Shown here piece by piece: positions 3,510 through 18,210 of a DNA stretch of 25,555 nucleotides. A program made the translations under genes and the position numbers. The notes below the pieces were generated by a model. It did no database searches and was not told where the DNA came from. It saw nothing but the letters and a program-made list of their open reading frames with translations. The stretch lies in IMG/VR virus record IMGVR_UViG_3300006875_000146, positions 1 to 25,555 of that record; one strand, 5' to 3'. This DNA comes from a virus. Position 1 is the stretch's first letter. Every line of letters starts with the position of its first letter.

Positions 3510-3791
3510 GCGAGTATGGTGGAATCGGTAGACACACCAGACTTATGAAAATTGAGCCTCATTTGAGAAACCTTATGAGTGTAACTCCTCAAATTCGGTG
3601 AAACCTGTAAAATGGCAATACCGAGCCAAGCATCGTAAGATGAAGGTGTAGAGACTAGACGGGGAGCACCTAAACTGAAAAGTATGGTGAAGGTATAGTC
3701 CAGACCACAAACCGAAAGGGTAGTGAAAACTATAGTGGTACGAAAATCTGTTGGGCGTATGCCCGTGCCAGTTCGACTCTGGCTACTCGCA
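3510..3791 (+). tRNA. tRNA-Leu(UAA), interrupted by a group I intron
   Basis: The 5' exon is 3510-3544 and the 3' exon 3743-3790, with discriminator A at 3791. Joined, the exons fold as a complete class II tRNA. The acceptor stem GCGAGTA/TACTCGC pairs fully. The D stem is GTG/CAC. The anticodon arm is CAGA-CTTAAAA-TCTG with anticodon TAA (one C.T mismatch at the base). The long variable arm is GGGC-GTAT-GCCC, and the T arm is GCCAG-TTCGACT-CTGGC. A73 and the variable arm are leucine identity features. CCA is not encoded. The intron lies after the first anticodon base, the same place as in cyanobacterial and plastid tRNA-Leu(UAA) genes. Confidence 0.93.
3545..3742 (+). ncRNA. Group I intron (IC3-like) in tRNA-Leu(UAA)
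   Basis: 198 nt, ending in the terminal G expected of group I introns. P1 pairs exon CTT (3542-3544) with GAG (3554-3556), giving U.G at the splice site. P2 is ATTTGAG (3561-3567)/CTCAAAT (3588-3594). P4 is TCGGT (3595-3599)/ACCGA (3620-3624). P6a is CATC-GTAA-GATG (3631-3642). P7 is GACTA (3653-3657)/TAGTC (3696-3700). P8 is CACC (3667-3670)/GGTG (3686-3689). P9 is CCAC (3705-3708)/GTGG (3735-3738), with a GAAA-capped hairpin at 3721-3732. The core strings GGCAATACCGAGCCAAGC and AGAGACTAGACGG closely resemble cyanobacterial tRNA-Leu introns. It encodes no complete ORF and should self-splice. Confidence 0.9.
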
Positions 3792-3793
3792 CT

Positions 3794-3828
3794 TTGGGTT
3801 ATAAATATCATTAGATACTTGAACCCAA
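3794..3828 (+). promoter_or_regulatory. Start-codon-sequestering hairpin with embedded late promoter
   Basis: TTGGGTT (3794-3800) pairs with AACCCAA (3822-3828), whose last base is the A of the HNH start codon; an inner TATC/GATA pairing may extend it. RNA read through from the tRNA operon would hold the start codon in the stem. RNA started at the late promoter lacks the 5' arm. Confidence 0.55.
3800..3807 (+). promoter_or_regulatory. T4-type late promoter TATAAATA (HNH gene 1)
   Basis: Exact T4 late consensus, 20 nt before the ATG at 3828 and 9 nt after the tRNA-Leu. The expected start is about 6 nt downstream (near 3813), between the arms of the inverted repeat 3794-3800 / 3822-3828. Confidence 0.75.
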
Positions 3829-4163
3829 TGCCTTACAAAGATAAAGAAAAACAAAAAGAATATCAACGCAAGTGGCATTCTGAACACAAACTTCCCAAAA
3901 CAAAACAAACCTCTCATAATAAGAGAAAAGCAATGGTTGAGGAAGCAAAAGATAAACCTTGTGCTATATGTAAGGTTAAATATCCTCCGTGTGCTATGGA
4001 TTTGCACCATATTGACCCTCTAACAAAAGATATGGGTGGTATAAGTGGTATGATGAGAATAGGTTCCTATCAAAAACTTCAAGAAGAAATTGATAAGTGT
4101 GTCCCTCTTTGTGCTATTTGCCATAGATTACTTCATAATGACTTAGTACAATTAATTTTTTAA
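3828..4163 (+). CDS. HNH homing endonuclease, 111 aa
   Basis: The N-terminal 40 residues are very basic (MPYKDKEKQKEYQRKWHSEH). The HNH zinc-ribbon core follows: C45-x2-C48, MDLHHIDP (57-64), then C95-x2-C98-H99 and H103-N104. HNH enzymes of this type nick or cut DNA and act as free-standing homing endonucleases. I chose ATG 3828 because it follows a late promoter. The frame is open upstream from 3699, through the intron end and the tRNA 3' exon, so a GTG at 3723 is a theoretical longer start, but it would encode tRNA sequence. The gene lies directly behind the intron-containing tRNA and is flanked by a TCGCACT direct repeat. It may promote spread of the intron or of itself; this is inferred. 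Confidence 0.88.
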   Translation: MPYKDKEKQKEYQRKWHSEHKLPKTKQTSHNKRKAMVEEAKDKPCAICKVKYPPCAMDLHHIDPLTKDMGGISGMMRIGSYQKLQEEIDKCVPLCAICHRLLHNDLVQLIF

Positions 4164-4221: not shown

Positions 4222-4491
4222 ATGAAATACAGAATAGATGCCAGATATGTTTGGTACAACAGAGGAACACAACTTGTTCTGATGTATTTTATCCAAAATA
4301 TTCCTTTTACTTTTGATGATGTTCCAGATAGTCTTATGTATGATTTGGAACTCATAGAACTAGCAGACAACGAAAGACGCTTTGAACCAGAGGATTTATA
4401 CAAATCATCATTCTATTTGATTGATGAAGAGTGTCATCCAATGTTATTTGAAGTTGAACTGGAAAATCCAGAAATGATGCCTGCGGATTAA
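4222..4491 (+). CDS. Small acidic hypothetical protein, 89 aa
   Basis: Starts MKYRIDARYVWYNRGTQLVL, with AAGGAA (4209-4214) as a Shine-Dalgarno 7 nt upstream and a late-type motif before that. The protein is acidic, with a beta-rich N-terminus and a Glu/Asp-rich C-terminus (VELENPEMMPAD). No domain is recognised. Its stop TAA (4489-4491) is separated by a single base from the tRNA-Thr, so mRNA and tRNA are almost certainly cotranscribed and separated by RNase P-type processing. Confidence 0.78.
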   Translation: MKYRIDARYVWYNRGTQLVLMYFIQNIPFTFDDVPDSLMYDLELIELADNERRFEPEDLYKSSFYLIDEECHPMLFEVELENPEMMPAD

Positions 4492-4492
4492 T

Positions 4493-4564
4493 GCCGAAGT
4501 AGCTCAGTGATAGAGCAGGAATTTTGTAAATTTCAGGTCGCAGGTTTGATCCCTGTCTTCGGCT
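4493..4564 (+). tRNA. tRNA-Thr(UGU)
   Basis: Acceptor stem GCCGAAG/CTTCGGC; D arm GCTC-AGTGATA-GAGC; anticodon stem GGAAT/ATTTC with loop TTTGTAA (anticodon TGT, reading ACA); short variable loop; T arm GCAGG-TTTGATC-CCTGT; discriminator T at 4564. CCA is not encoded. The T loop has T where C56 is expected (TTT rather than TTC), an unusual substitution at a tertiary-contact position. The gene starts 1 nt after the stop of the 89-aa ORF. Confidence 0.88.
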
Positions 4565-4664: not shown

Positions 4665-5276
4665 ATGCCTAACTGGACAGAGGAAGGTTTCCAGCGTATT
4701 ATTGATGCTGGACAAAGAGGTGGTTTAACAACAAAAGAAAAATTTAAAAAAATTAAAGAAGAATACTATAAAAATCCTAAATTATGTTTAAACTGTAATA
4801 AAGGAATATTATACGAAAGAAAAAACGAAAATAAATTTTGCAGTAGTTCTTGTTCTGCTAAATTTTTTAACACTAAAAGAAAAAAAGAAAAAAATTGTTT
4901 AGTCTGTGATAATGAAGTTAAGAAAGGAGCATCAAAATATTGCTCACTTAAATGTCAAAAAACATATCATTTTAACCAAAGATTATCTGATTGGATAAAT
5001 GGAGATTCTACAACAAAATCAAGAGATTTTTTTAGAAGATATTTAACAGAAACTTACGGATACAAATGTTCTTGCTGTCATATTACTGAATGGAATGGAA
5101 AATCAATTGTTTTGGAGATAGATCACATAGATGGAAATTCTGAAAATAATAGACCAGAAAATTTAAGATTTATTTGTCCAAACTGCCATTCACAAACTGA
5201 CACTTACAAAGGAAAAAATGTTGGTAAAGGAAGACATTATAGAAGAGAAAGATATGCGGCTGGACAGAGTTACTAA
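4665..5276 (+). CDS. HNH homing endonuclease with tandem zinc-finger knuckles, 203 aa
   Basis: Residues 1-40 are basic and helical (EGFQRIIDAGQRGGLTTKEK). Two zinc-knuckle motifs follow: C41-x2-C44...C59-x3-C63 and C78-x2-C81...C93-x3-C97. The HNH core comprises C135/C138, EIDHIDGN (151-158), NRPENLRFICPNCHS (162-176) and C171-x2-C174-H175. The tail is basic (YKGKNVGKGRHYRRERY). This is the usual build of phage free-standing HNH homing endonucleases, where the zinc knuckles add DNA contacts. It sits between the tRNA-Thr and a 56-aa ORF, under an exact late consensus within a hairpin. Codon use is very A-rich (many AAA and AAT) compared with neighbours, consistent with independent mobility. 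The target site cannot be told from the sequence. Confidence 0.9.
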   Translation: MPNWTEEGFQRIIDAGQRGGLTTKEKFKKIKEEYYKNPKLCLNCNKGILYERKNENKFCSSSCSAKFFNTKRKKEKNCLVCDNEVKKGASKYCSLKCQKTYHFNQRLSDWINGDSTTKSRDFFRRYLTETYGYKCSCCHITEWNGKSIVLEIDHIDGNSENNRPENLRFICPNCHSQTDTYKGKNVGKGRHYRRERYAAGQSY

Positions 5277-5309: not shown

Positions 5310-5480
5310 ATGAAGATAAATCTCTGGTACTGCAAAGAAATGCAGCAATGGCGTTGGACCCTTACCGACGACTCAAGACCTATTCTTAAACAAGAATCTG
5401 GACAGCAACCAGATCTTCGTGCAGCAATGAATGATGTTGCAACAACCGTAGAATATATGATGAAATCCTCACAAGAATGA
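5310..5480 (+). CDS. Small hypothetical protein, 56 aa
   Basis: A short ORF from ATG 5310 to TGA 5478-5480, beginning MKINLWYCKEMQQWRWTLTD and ending in a helical acidic stretch (AAMNDVATTVEYMMKSSQE). Its stop overlaps the start of the next gene (ATGA, 5477-5480), the classic arrangement for translational coupling. It is Trp-rich at the N-terminus and Glu/Met-rich at the C-terminus. No domain is recognised; the overlap and sensible composition support it as real. Confidence 0.78.
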   Translation: MKINLWYCKEMQQWRWTLTDDSRPILKQESGQQPDLRAAMNDVATTVEYMMKSSQE

Positions 5481-6124
5481 GTAAAAATACTCAGTACTTT
5501 ATAGATAGAGTAAGTAAAGAAGAAATCAAAAATCTTCTTTACAATTTTCACTATCTAAAAGACGAATCAAAGGACTTTAAAAGTGGATATAATTACGGGT
5601 TATTTTCCTCTTCCTCTACTGATGTTCTCCGTGTGGGTGGGTGTCTCGCTTGTTGTGTGTTTACTAAGATCCCCGTCCCAGAAATAGCAGTTGGGGCATT
5701 TGGATTACAAAGACATGAGCAAGAAGGACTTTATGAACTATCAAGATTGTGTGTTCATCCGGATATTCAGAAAACAGAGTATAACATTACCTCTTGGTTC
5801 GTCAGTCGTTGTATAAAGAGGTTCCGAAAAGATGCCTGCGTTCGTGCTATTCTTAGTTACGTTGATGCTAATCACCACTCTGGAGTTATATACAGAGATT
5901 GTAATTTTACTTACTACGGTCTAACAGCACCTAAAAAAGACTTTTACTATGCTGATGGTACAAAGCATTCAAGGGGAAGTGTGAAGGGTGCTGAAGGTGA
6001 GTGGAGAGAAAGAAGTCGTAAACACAGATATTTGATGATCTTTGATAAAGAACTCAAGAAACGCTTGACTTGGAAAGAGGAAAGTGGTATAATAAAAAAG
6101 ACGATACTGAAATCGTTACAGTGA
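5477..6124 (+). CDS. Mom-like GNAT-fold protein (possible DNA-modification enzyme), 215 aa
   Basis: The motif order matches what I recall of the phage Mu Mom family: a conserved ELSRLCVHPD (87-96), a helix TSWFVSRCIKRFRK (105-118), and ILSYVDANHHSGVIYRDCNF (125-144) followed by TYYGLT. Mom proteins are GNAT-like and modify adenine in phage DNA to evade restriction; cyanophage relatives have not, as far as I know, been shown to do so. The basic C-terminus (RSRKHRYLMIFDKELKKRL) fits nucleic-acid binding. An alternative is a generic GNAT acetyltransferase. It overlaps the 56-aa ORF by 4 nt and is followed by a strong terminator. Its product would act in the cytoplasm on phage DNA; this is inferred. 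Confidence 0.65.
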   Translation: MSKNTQYFIDRVSKEEIKNLLYNFHYLKDESKDFKSGYNYGLFSSSSTDVLRVGGCLACCVFTKIPVPEIAVGAFGLQRHEQEGLYELSRLCVHPDIQKTEYNITSWFVSRCIKRFRKDACVRAILSYVDANHHSGVIYRDCNFTYYGLTAPKKDFYYADGTKHSRGSVKGAEGEWRERSRKHRYLMIFDKELKKRLTWKEESGIIKKTILKSLQ

Positions 6125-15750: not shown

Positions 15751-18210
15751 ATGGCAGATTTAACTAGCGGACAGGTTGTTGGTGCAGACGGTCAATTTAT
15801 TTCTCTAGACCAAACAGAGAGATATCTTGGAGTTCCTGATGAAGATGGAAAAATATTAGCATCTTTAGTTGATGGAACAAGATATTGGACTCAAAACGGT
15901 GCTCAAGGTGTTCAAGGTTCTCAAGGACCTCAAGGTATTCAAGGTTCTGGCGGTGCTCAAGGTTCTGTAGGTGCTCAAGGTATTCAAGGTGCTGCGGGAG
16001 CTCAAGGTTCTGGAGGTGCTCAAGGATCCGCAGGAGCTCAAGGTGTTCAAGGTACTTCAGGTCCACAAGGAGCTCAAGGTGTTCAAGGTGTTCAGGGATC
16101 TGAAGGAACTCAAGGATCTGCTGGTGCTCAAGGTGTTCAGGGTTCTGGAGGTACTGCAGGAGCTCAAGGTGTTCAAGGTTCTTCAGGACCTCAAGGTGTT
16201 CAAGGTTCTGTAGGAGCTCAAGGTTCTTCAGGGCCTCAAGGTGTTCAAGGTTCTGTAGGAGATCAAGGAGTTCAAGGTCGTCAAGGTGTTCAAGGATCTG
16301 TAGGTGCTCAAGGTGTCCAAGGGGCAACTGGACCTCAAGGTGCTCAAGGATCTAAAGGTAATGATGGAACATCTGTCGTTATTATTGGTTCCGTTGATAC
16401 AGTAACAATATCATCTCCACAAACATATTTACTTGGAAATCAAACAAACGATACTAATGCTGGTGTATATCCACGTTCAGCGGGAAATGGTGTAATTGAA
16501 ACAAGTAGTGGAGACCTTTGGGTTTTTGATGGTACTGTTTGGAATAATGTAGGTCCATTTGTAGGACCACAAGGCCCTCAAGGTGTCCAAGGTGCTTCAG
16601 GAACTCAAGGATCATCAGGTGCTCAAGGTGTTCAAGGTTCTATAGGAGTACAAGGTGTTCAAGGTTCTATAGGAGCACAAGGTGTTCAAGGTGTTCAAGG
16701 TCCTCAAGGACGCCAAGGTGTTCAAGGTACTGCAGGACCTCAAGGTGTTCAGGGTACTGTAGGAGCACAAGGAGTTCAGGGTTCTGGAGGTGCTCAAGGG
16801 TCCGCTGGTGCTCAAGGTGTTCAAGGACGCCAAGGTGTTCAGGGTACTGTAGGAGCACAAGGAGTTCAGGGTTCTGGAGGTGCTCAAGGAGTTCAGGGTG
16901 CCGGAGGTGGTTCTGGTGCTCAAGGTGTTCAAGGTGTTCAAGGTGCTGCGGGAGCTCAAGGTGTTCAGGGTTCTGGAGGTACTGCAGGAGCTCAAGGTGT
17001 TCAAGGTGTTCAGGGTTCTCCAGGACCTCAAGGAGTCCAAGGTGTTCAGGGTTCTGGAGGTGGTTCTGGTGCTCAAGGTGTTCAAGGTGCACAGGGTGCA
17101 CAAGGTTCTCCTGGTGCTCAAGGCGATGTAGGATCACAAGGAGTTACTGGTTCTTCAGGACCACAAGGTGTTCAGGGTTCTCCAGGTGCTCAAGGACCAG
17201 AAGGTGTTCAGGGTTCTCTAGGTGCTCAAGGTATTCAAGGTGTTCAAGGTTCTGTGGGAACTGGAGCTCAAGGTGCTCAAGGATCCGCAGGACCTCAAGG
17301 TGTTCAAGGTGTTCAAGGTGTTCAAGGAACTCAAGGACCTCAAGGAGTTCAAGGTCGTCAAGGCTCTCCAGGACCTCAAGGGGTTGCTGGTGGTACAGGT
17401 CCTCAAGGTGTCCAAGGTACAGCAGGTCCTCAAGGAGTTCAAGGTCGTCAAGGTGTTCAAGGTTCTGAAGGTGCTCAAGGAGTGCAGGGTAGAACAGGTC
17501 CTTCTAATCTTATTAATGCAGCAGAACTTGGAACCACTGGTGGATTCTTTTACCCTGTTATGGTCACAGCAACTGGCGATACAAGTCCCTATGTTGATGG
17601 AACTGGACCATCTGCTCCAGCAGTTAGATACCAACAAAGCGTGATCCATCCTGGAGGATCGTCTGCTGGCGGATCTGTATCGAGTGGATCTTTTGTGGCA
17701 AGAGGTGATACTGCATCATCTATTACTACATCAGATGCTGCATTAATGAGTAATATTGGAACGTTTTATAGTTTTTTCTCATCAACTGGTGGTTATACTC
17801 ACAGAGTATATGTATCAGGAGGTACAATAGCATATAATGAATATGTTTCAAATGCTCAGACTCAATTCCAAAGAGGGTCCAACGGTGATATATCGATTGA
17901 GTCACTTGGAGCTGGTTATTATGTAAAAGCTAAGCATGGTTCAGATGCTGCTTCAGCTGTTGTATGGACAAGCAATTATTTTCCAAATTTAAGTTCAACA
18001 ACTGCTGAAGTAGGATGTTATGCTATGTGTTCTCGTGACAACACTGCAACTTCTTTTGGTGCAACAACCGCAGGATCTAATTTACGATATTCGAATGCAG
18101 CTGGATCTGAACCTACCAATACAACACCACCAGGAACTTGGAGATGCATGGGAGATATTAGTAGTGCAACAGGGGATGCGAGTGCCACAGTTTGGTTAAG
18201 AATCGCATAA
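15751..18210 (+). CDS. Collagen-like tail fibre, 819 aa
   Basis: Residues 1-49 form an N-terminal cap (MADLTSGQVVGADGQFISLD). Uninterrupted Gly-X-Y triplets, chiefly GAQ, GVQ, GPQ and GSx, run from about 50 to 206. A non-collagen insert (207-267) contains GVIETSSGDLWVFDGTVWNN, a motif often found between collagen blocks in phage fibres. A second Gly-X-Y block covers about 268-584. The C-terminal 235 residues form a Ser/Thr/Gly-rich globular head ending TVWLRIA, with two Cys (CYAMCS). A trimeric triple-helical fibre shaft with a receptor-binding head is the natural reading. The Y position is largely Gln rather than hydroxyproline, as usual in phage collagens. It is followed by a tail-fibre assembly chaperone gene. 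Confidence 0.92.
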   Translation: MADLTSGQVVGADGQFISLDQTERYLGVPDEDGKILASLVDGTRYWTQNGAQGVQGSQGPQGIQGSGGAQGSVGAQGIQGAAGAQGSGGAQGSAGAQGVQGTSGPQGAQGVQGVQGSEGTQGSAGAQGVQGSGGTAGAQGVQGSSGPQGVQGSVGAQGSSGPQGVQGSVGDQGVQGRQGVQGSVGAQGVQGATGPQGAQGSKGNDGTSVVIIGSVDTVTISSPQTYLLGNQTNDTNAGVYPRSAGNGVIETSSGDLWVFDGTVWNNVGPFVGPQGPQGVQGASGTQGSSGAQGVQGSIGVQGVQGSIGAQGVQGVQGPQGRQGVQGTAGPQGVQGTVGAQGVQGSGGAQGSAGAQGVQGRQGVQGTVGAQGVQGSGGAQGVQGAGGGSGAQGVQGVQGAAGAQGVQGSGGTAGAQGVQGVQGSPGPQGVQGVQGSGGGSGAQGVQGAQGAQGSPGAQGDVGSQGVTGSSGPQGVQGSPGAQGPEGVQGSLGAQGIQGVQGSVGTGAQGAQGSAGPQGVQGVQGVQGTQGPQGVQGRQGSPGPQGVAGGTGPQGVQGTAGPQGVQGRQGVQGSEGAQGVQGRTGPSNLINAAELGTTGGFFYPVMVTATGDTSPYVDGTGPSAPAVRYQQSVIHPGGSSAGGSVSSGSFVARGDTASSITTSDAALMSNIGTFYSFFSSTGGYTHRVYVSGGTIAYNEYVSNAQTQFQRGSNGDISIESLGAGYYVKAKHGSDAASAVVWTSNYFPNLSSTTAEVGCYAMCSRDNTATSFGATTAGSNLRYSNAAGSEPTNTTPPGTWRCMGDISSATGDASATVWLRIA
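15898..17510 (+). repeat. CAAGGTGTTCAAGGT-type tandem repeats coding Gly-X-Y
   Basis: Nine-base units (one Gly-X-Y triplet) in two blocks, 15898-16374 and 16557-17510, interrupted by the non-collagen insert. Longer exact copies exist: 59 nt at 16741-16799 recur at 16831-16889 (offset 90 nt, 30 codons), and a block around 16126-16179 recurs around 16957-17010. The same units appear in the partial gene at 25380-25555. Confidence 0.9.

Follow-up and report, generated by a model that had tools for sequence, protein, structure and literature searches.

A group I intron in phage tRNA-Leu(UAA) genes and its probable spread by homing with HNH nucleases

Here, we describe a group I intron that interrupts the tRNA-Leu(UAA) gene of a cyanophage and that, in the reading we favor (probability of roughly 60%, based on comparative sequence analysis), represents a group of mobile introns spread among phages by homing, with HNH nucleases encoded within the intron or next to it. 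After transcription, the intron would splice itself out with a guanosine cofactor, by way of the U-G pair of P1 and the terminal G, to yield a working tRNA-Leu that reads UUA. On co-infection, intronless tRNA-Leu alleles would be cut by a nuclease whose gene lies within the intron or immediately 3′ of the tRNA, and repair of the cut allele would copy the intron across; the intron splits the nuclease target and would thereby spare its own genome. The DNA analyzed (hereafter, the window) is a 25,555-base IMG/VR virus record, a fragment of a T4-like cyanophage, and its intron is an ORF-less member of this putatively mobile group.

All features of the locus are encoded on the + strand. The 5′ exon of tRNA-Leu(UAA), up to U34, occupies positions 3510–3544 and has the same sequence in two intronless relatives (L231 and L317); it is followed by the 198-nt intron (3545–3742), inserted between U34 and A35, and by the 3′ exon (3743–3791), which extends from A35 to the discriminator base A73, with the CCA not encoded. 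An HNH endonuclease ORF assigned to phrog_3106 by PHROGs (HNH1, 3828–4163) starts 36 bp 3′ of the tRNA-Leu gene. Next comes p89 (4222–4491), an 89-aa protein of phrog_4134 (PHROGs) that is the usual next gene in cyanophages and was used as a host-group marker: of the 80 phage records it matches, 78 are named Synechococcus, Prochlorococcus or cyanophage. Downstream lie an intronless tRNA-Thr(UGU) (4493–4564; ARAGORN and Rfam) and, 3′ of it, a second HNH endonuclease ORF (4665–5276; Pfam HNH_3, PHROGs and phylogenetic tree). The Kyanoviridae isolates S-8S29 and S-CREM1 share this gene order, in which gp5 is followed by a small group of tRNAs. In the window, the tRNA cluster is adjoined by a gene for a Mom-like DNA modification protein (5477–6124), and further downstream (15751–18210) lies the gene for a probable tail fibre of 819 aa that is rich in collagen-like GAQG/GVQG repeats.

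ARAGORN in its default mode misses the split gene and lists tRNA-Thr alone in the window. When the two exons (3510–3544 and 3743–3791) are joined, however, the same program reports an 84-nt tRNA-Leu(taa), a cloverleaf with a UAA anticodon, a long variable arm and A73. The claim of the earlier note that the exon halves form a full tRNA-Leu(UAA) was thus borne out, but not its statement that all stems are paired: pair 27-43 of the spliced tRNA is a C-U mismatch, which recurs in phage tRNA-Leu genes that have these exons but no intron. UUA is the most frequent leucine codon in the window (41%), so that a tRNA reading it could plausibly help the phage.

The insert matches the Rfam group I intron model RF00028 at positions 3535–3724 (+ strand) with 64.2 bits, above the gathering score of 50 (E = 2.2e-14), and, together with the tRNA recovered from the joined exons, this match upholds the proposal of a tRNA-Leu(UAA) split by a group I intron. 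The boundaries are fixed by relatives with empty sites (L231, L317 and the isolate DSL-LC02) that have the same exon junction, and the insertion point, U34|A35, is indeed the classical cyanobacterial/plastid position. The structure was evaluated on 18 non-redundant, divergent phage introns, using a group I structure with P7 as a pseudoknot. P1 pairs CUU of the exon (3542–3544) with GAG of the intron (3554–3556), coordinates that were read from the row of the window in this alignment; its three splice-site pairs are invariant, and in all 18 introns the last base of the 5′ exon, a U, forms a pair with a G of the intron. P3 (3585–3590 with 3661–3666), P4 (3595–3600 with 3619–3624), P6 (3625–3627 with 3645–3647), P7 (3651 and 3653–3656 with 3697–3701, forming the pseudoknot with P3) and P8 (3667–3670 with 3686–3689) are each 100% paired, with two-sided changes in five of the six pairs of P3, two pairs of P4 and three of the four pairs of P8. 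P7 is invariant except for one compensatory change, G-C to A-U, in L051.

Across the 18 introns, 93.3% of cells are paired, compared with 79.4% in shuffled alignments, 29 pairs show two-sided changes, compared with 20.7, and the covariation score is 0.418, compared with 0.147, with none of 500 shuffles scoring as high; versions of the structure with slid partners reached at most 0.086. The covariation of the group I core (P3, P4, P6, P7 and P8) is far beyond chance, and the pairings noted earlier from the single sequence (P1, P4, P7 and P8), along with the terminal G (3742 in the window), hold up when homologous phage introns are aligned. A pairing of exon bases 6–9 with the 3′ strand of P7, proposed by RNAalifold, was rejected because this strand is used by P7; structure model R1 retains that pairing, though in invariant columns.

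Pattern scans detected the same arrangement in 102 IMG/VR contigs (64 and 38), although some of those that do not belong to the cyanophages may be bacterial DNA assigned to viruses in error. A similarity search added two huge-phage genomes from GenBank (735 and 595 kb) that share the insertion. Almost all of the fully extracted viral genes (92 of 93) splice in silico to tRNA-Leu(taa). In three records of cyanophage size (153–175 kb), the tRNA-Leu intron is the sole RF00028 match; a phage record of 149,876 bp (G002, the contig of L192) has five group I intron matches, one of them in tRNA-Leu. Cyanophages also encode tRNAs that combine a UAA anticodon with a short variable loop, which sets them apart from normal tRNA-Leu (positions 1816–1888 of L348, from isolate S-CREM1, as well as L384, L386, L387, L400, L421 and others); some of these carry the intron, and many adjoin the HNH gene considered below.

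The distribution of the intron among related phages is patchy. At least 120 contigs contain the same exons without the intron, and the isolate DSL-LC02 likewise has an empty site. In the pair L038 and L231, the exons are identical and the next 900 nt are 99.7% the same, but the two differ by an entire 260-nt intron; their DNA on the upstream side of the tRNA is unrelated, and therefore recombination has acted at the tRNA-Leu gene. Mapped on the p89 tree, intron presence requires 18 changes, five of them forced by well-supported branches; p89 is a short protein, many forks are unresolved, some of the 18 changes fall on weak branches, and the presence/absence clusters are partly dependent on each other. 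The intron has been gained or lost recurrently among related cyanophages.

A clade of HNH nucleases (phrog_10822) is closely linked to this gene. In many phages, its members are located 35–66 bp 3′ of the intron-bearing tRNA-Leu and, in others, inside the intron, in either orientation. A search of IMG/VR with this clade placed 75 of the best 80 hits at the tRNA-Leu(UAA) locus, 37 beside an intronless gene and 38 beside or inside an intron-bearing one; of the remaining five, three lie next to tRNA-Ile, one is truncated at the end of its contig and the last is ambiguous. The locus is accordingly found in three states, with the nuclease beside an intronless gene, beside an intron-bearing gene, or inside the intron. 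The last state is represented by at least 16 loci, and all 16 HNH-split introns tested rejoin to tRNA-Leu(taa). Genes for HNH nucleases lie antisense within the intron at L189, L226, L409, L430, L441, L452 and L457; as they occur in the sense orientation as well, the intron has been invaded in both orientations.

Among clusters with the common cyanophage exon sequence (joined at 85% identity and partly non-independent), the HNH clade adjoins 7 of 28 with the intron and none of 72 without it (Fisher p = 7e-5), leaving 21 of the 28 intron-bearing clusters without an adjacent member. This pattern is as expected if the nuclease cleaves that exon junction and is kept from doing so by the intron, as in the F-CphI/psbA system. 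An initial version of the comparison (14 of 55 versus 0 of 72 clusters) was set aside, given that its intronless sample had been drawn by an exact-exon pattern and the clade was later seen to adjoin tRNA(UAA) genes that lack the intron and differ in their exons; since this emerged from the reverse search, we restrict the claim to the common exon sequence. Alteration of the tRNA D-stem as self-protection of HNH-bearing intronless phages is kept as no more than a lead: it was partly an artefact of the background pattern, the minimum spacing of which left no room for tRNAs whose variable loop is short, and the altered tRNAs carry introns too. Within the window, HNH1 is not supported as the partner of the intron. 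While many relatives have a free-standing nuclease beside the intron-bearing tRNA-Leu, the neighbor here is HNH1, which belongs to a family other than the phrog_10822 clade and the closest relatives of which adjoin intronless tRNA-Leu genes with near-identical exons, and the second HNH ORF falls outside the tRNA-Leu-linked clade in the tree.

The strongest competing explanation, which we nevertheless consider rather unlikely, is that the intron is, or once was, mobile and the HNH genes are unrelated passengers, with the tRNA clusters of phages being hot-spots for both. In cyanophages, the region of gp5 and the tRNAs is known as a hot-spot of variation (PMC3037559), and the tRNA-linked HNH clade does occur beside intronless tRNA(UAA) genes. 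Furthermore, HNH1-type nucleases lie beside several tRNAs, mostly intronless: those in L476–L514 include neighbors of tRNA-Asn and genes that start about 355 bp ahead of the start of tRNA-Ser(UGA), so that tRNA genes look like general homing neighborhoods in these phages. Against unrelated passengers, the phrog_10822 clade is almost confined to the tRNA-Leu(UAA) locus, occurs within the intron in sense as well as antisense orientation, and does not accompany intronless tRNA-Leu genes that have the common exon sequence. These observations favor homing of the intron with intron-borne or neighboring HNH nucleases.

It is also conceivable, and in our assessment improbable, that the cyanophage acquired the intron along with the tRNA-Leu gene of a cyanobacterial host and has passed it on passively ever since, the intronless relatives being losses. 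The shared insertion site would fit such an origin, as would the observation that roughly half of the cyanobacterial genomes sampled contain a match to the intron model, located in tRNA-Leu or in a different tRNA. However, in an IQ-TREE phylogeny of 104 introns (198 columns; supports read after re-rooting), a single clade with a support of 99 and a long stem unites the 31 canonical cyanobacterial tRNA-Leu introns and contains no phage introns; the deep nodes are weak, including those between the cyanophage and cyanobacterial clades, which leaves some room for a host origin. Those of phages occupy scattered positions among the alphaproteobacterial and other lineages, some of them grouped with introns from podovirus capsid genes. 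In BLAST comparisons restricted to extracted genes, the window intron scores higher against tRNA-Leu introns of alphaproteobacteria (best 145 bits) than against the canonical cyanobacterial ones (best 111 bits); summed whole-locus scores (L002–L005 and L350–L379) were inflated and were not considered. A second, more phage-like type of tRNA-Leu intron, with a higher score under the phage model, was found in 5 of 291 sampled cyanobacteria (L350–L354). The 1.6–1.9 Mb genomes of the sampled cyanobacterial class, which to judge by their size are probably Prochlorococcus-like, have tRNA-Leu without an intron, and phages have identical exons both with and without it. The host lineage that the earlier note had assigned to the intron, and proposed to examine by phylogeny, is therefore not supported: judging from these comparisons, "cyanobacterial-type" suits the insertion site of the window intron and not its sequence. 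Phages may, all the same, ferry the tRNA-Leu intron between cyanobacteria.

That the intron is catalytically dead and the split tRNA a dead gene, as the mismatched 27-43 pair might suggest, is highly improbable, given that the core pairs are kept with compensatory changes, the splice-site pairs and terminal G are invariant, a proper tRNA-Leu results from in silico splicing of all but one of the 93 viral genes, and the same mismatch occurs in intronless phage genes with the same exons.

Several known systems resemble the one described here. The cyanobacterial/plastid trnL intron resides in the same gene and at the same site, with the same overall fold and a similar size, whereas the present introns are phage-borne, fall outside the canonical clade, are often linked to HNH genes and have a patchy distribution. 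The tRNA-Leu(UAA) introns of proteobacteria and other bacteria share the site, and most of them outscore the canonical cyanobacterial introns with a phage-built model, but they come from bacterial genome records and not from phage records. In the T4-like cyanophage S-PM2, the gene for the nuclease F-CphI lies beside the intron-bearing psbA (PMC6083498); this collaborative homing system combines, as many relatives of the window do, an intron-bearing gene with a free-standing nuclease next door, the differences being that, here, the target is a tRNA gene, the nucleases are of the HNH and not the Endo VII type, they are also found inside the intron, and cleavage is inferred. The group I introns in the capsid genes of pelagiphage-like podoviruses (HTVC120P and KM23-C739) have a closely similar core but interrupt a protein-coding gene.

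A 2014 review of bacterial group I introns observed that all phage introns then known were in protein-coding genes, despite the many tRNA genes of phages (PMC3984707); the tRNA-Leu introns contradict this as a general rule. Our literature search, which took in few subscription journals, retrieved no description of a group I intron in the tRNA genes of phages, in agreement with the earlier impression that this is not a well-described feature of cyanophages; a report elsewhere is possible. The word "intron" does not appear in the main text of the huge-phage paper (PMC7162821).

More broadly, and with somewhat less than even confidence, we propose that phage tRNA-Leu(UAA) genes are home to a two-part mobile element, a self-splicing intron and an HNH nuclease targeting the same gene, with stages of its formation preserved side by side at one locus and with phages as possible vectors of tRNA-Leu introns in several bacterial phyla. 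The findings suggest an overlooked mobile element living in phage tRNA genes, and at this locus it could be tested directly how an intron lacking an ORF and a separately encoded nuclease come to form one mobile intron, and whether the tRNA-Leu intron passes between bacteria by way of phages.
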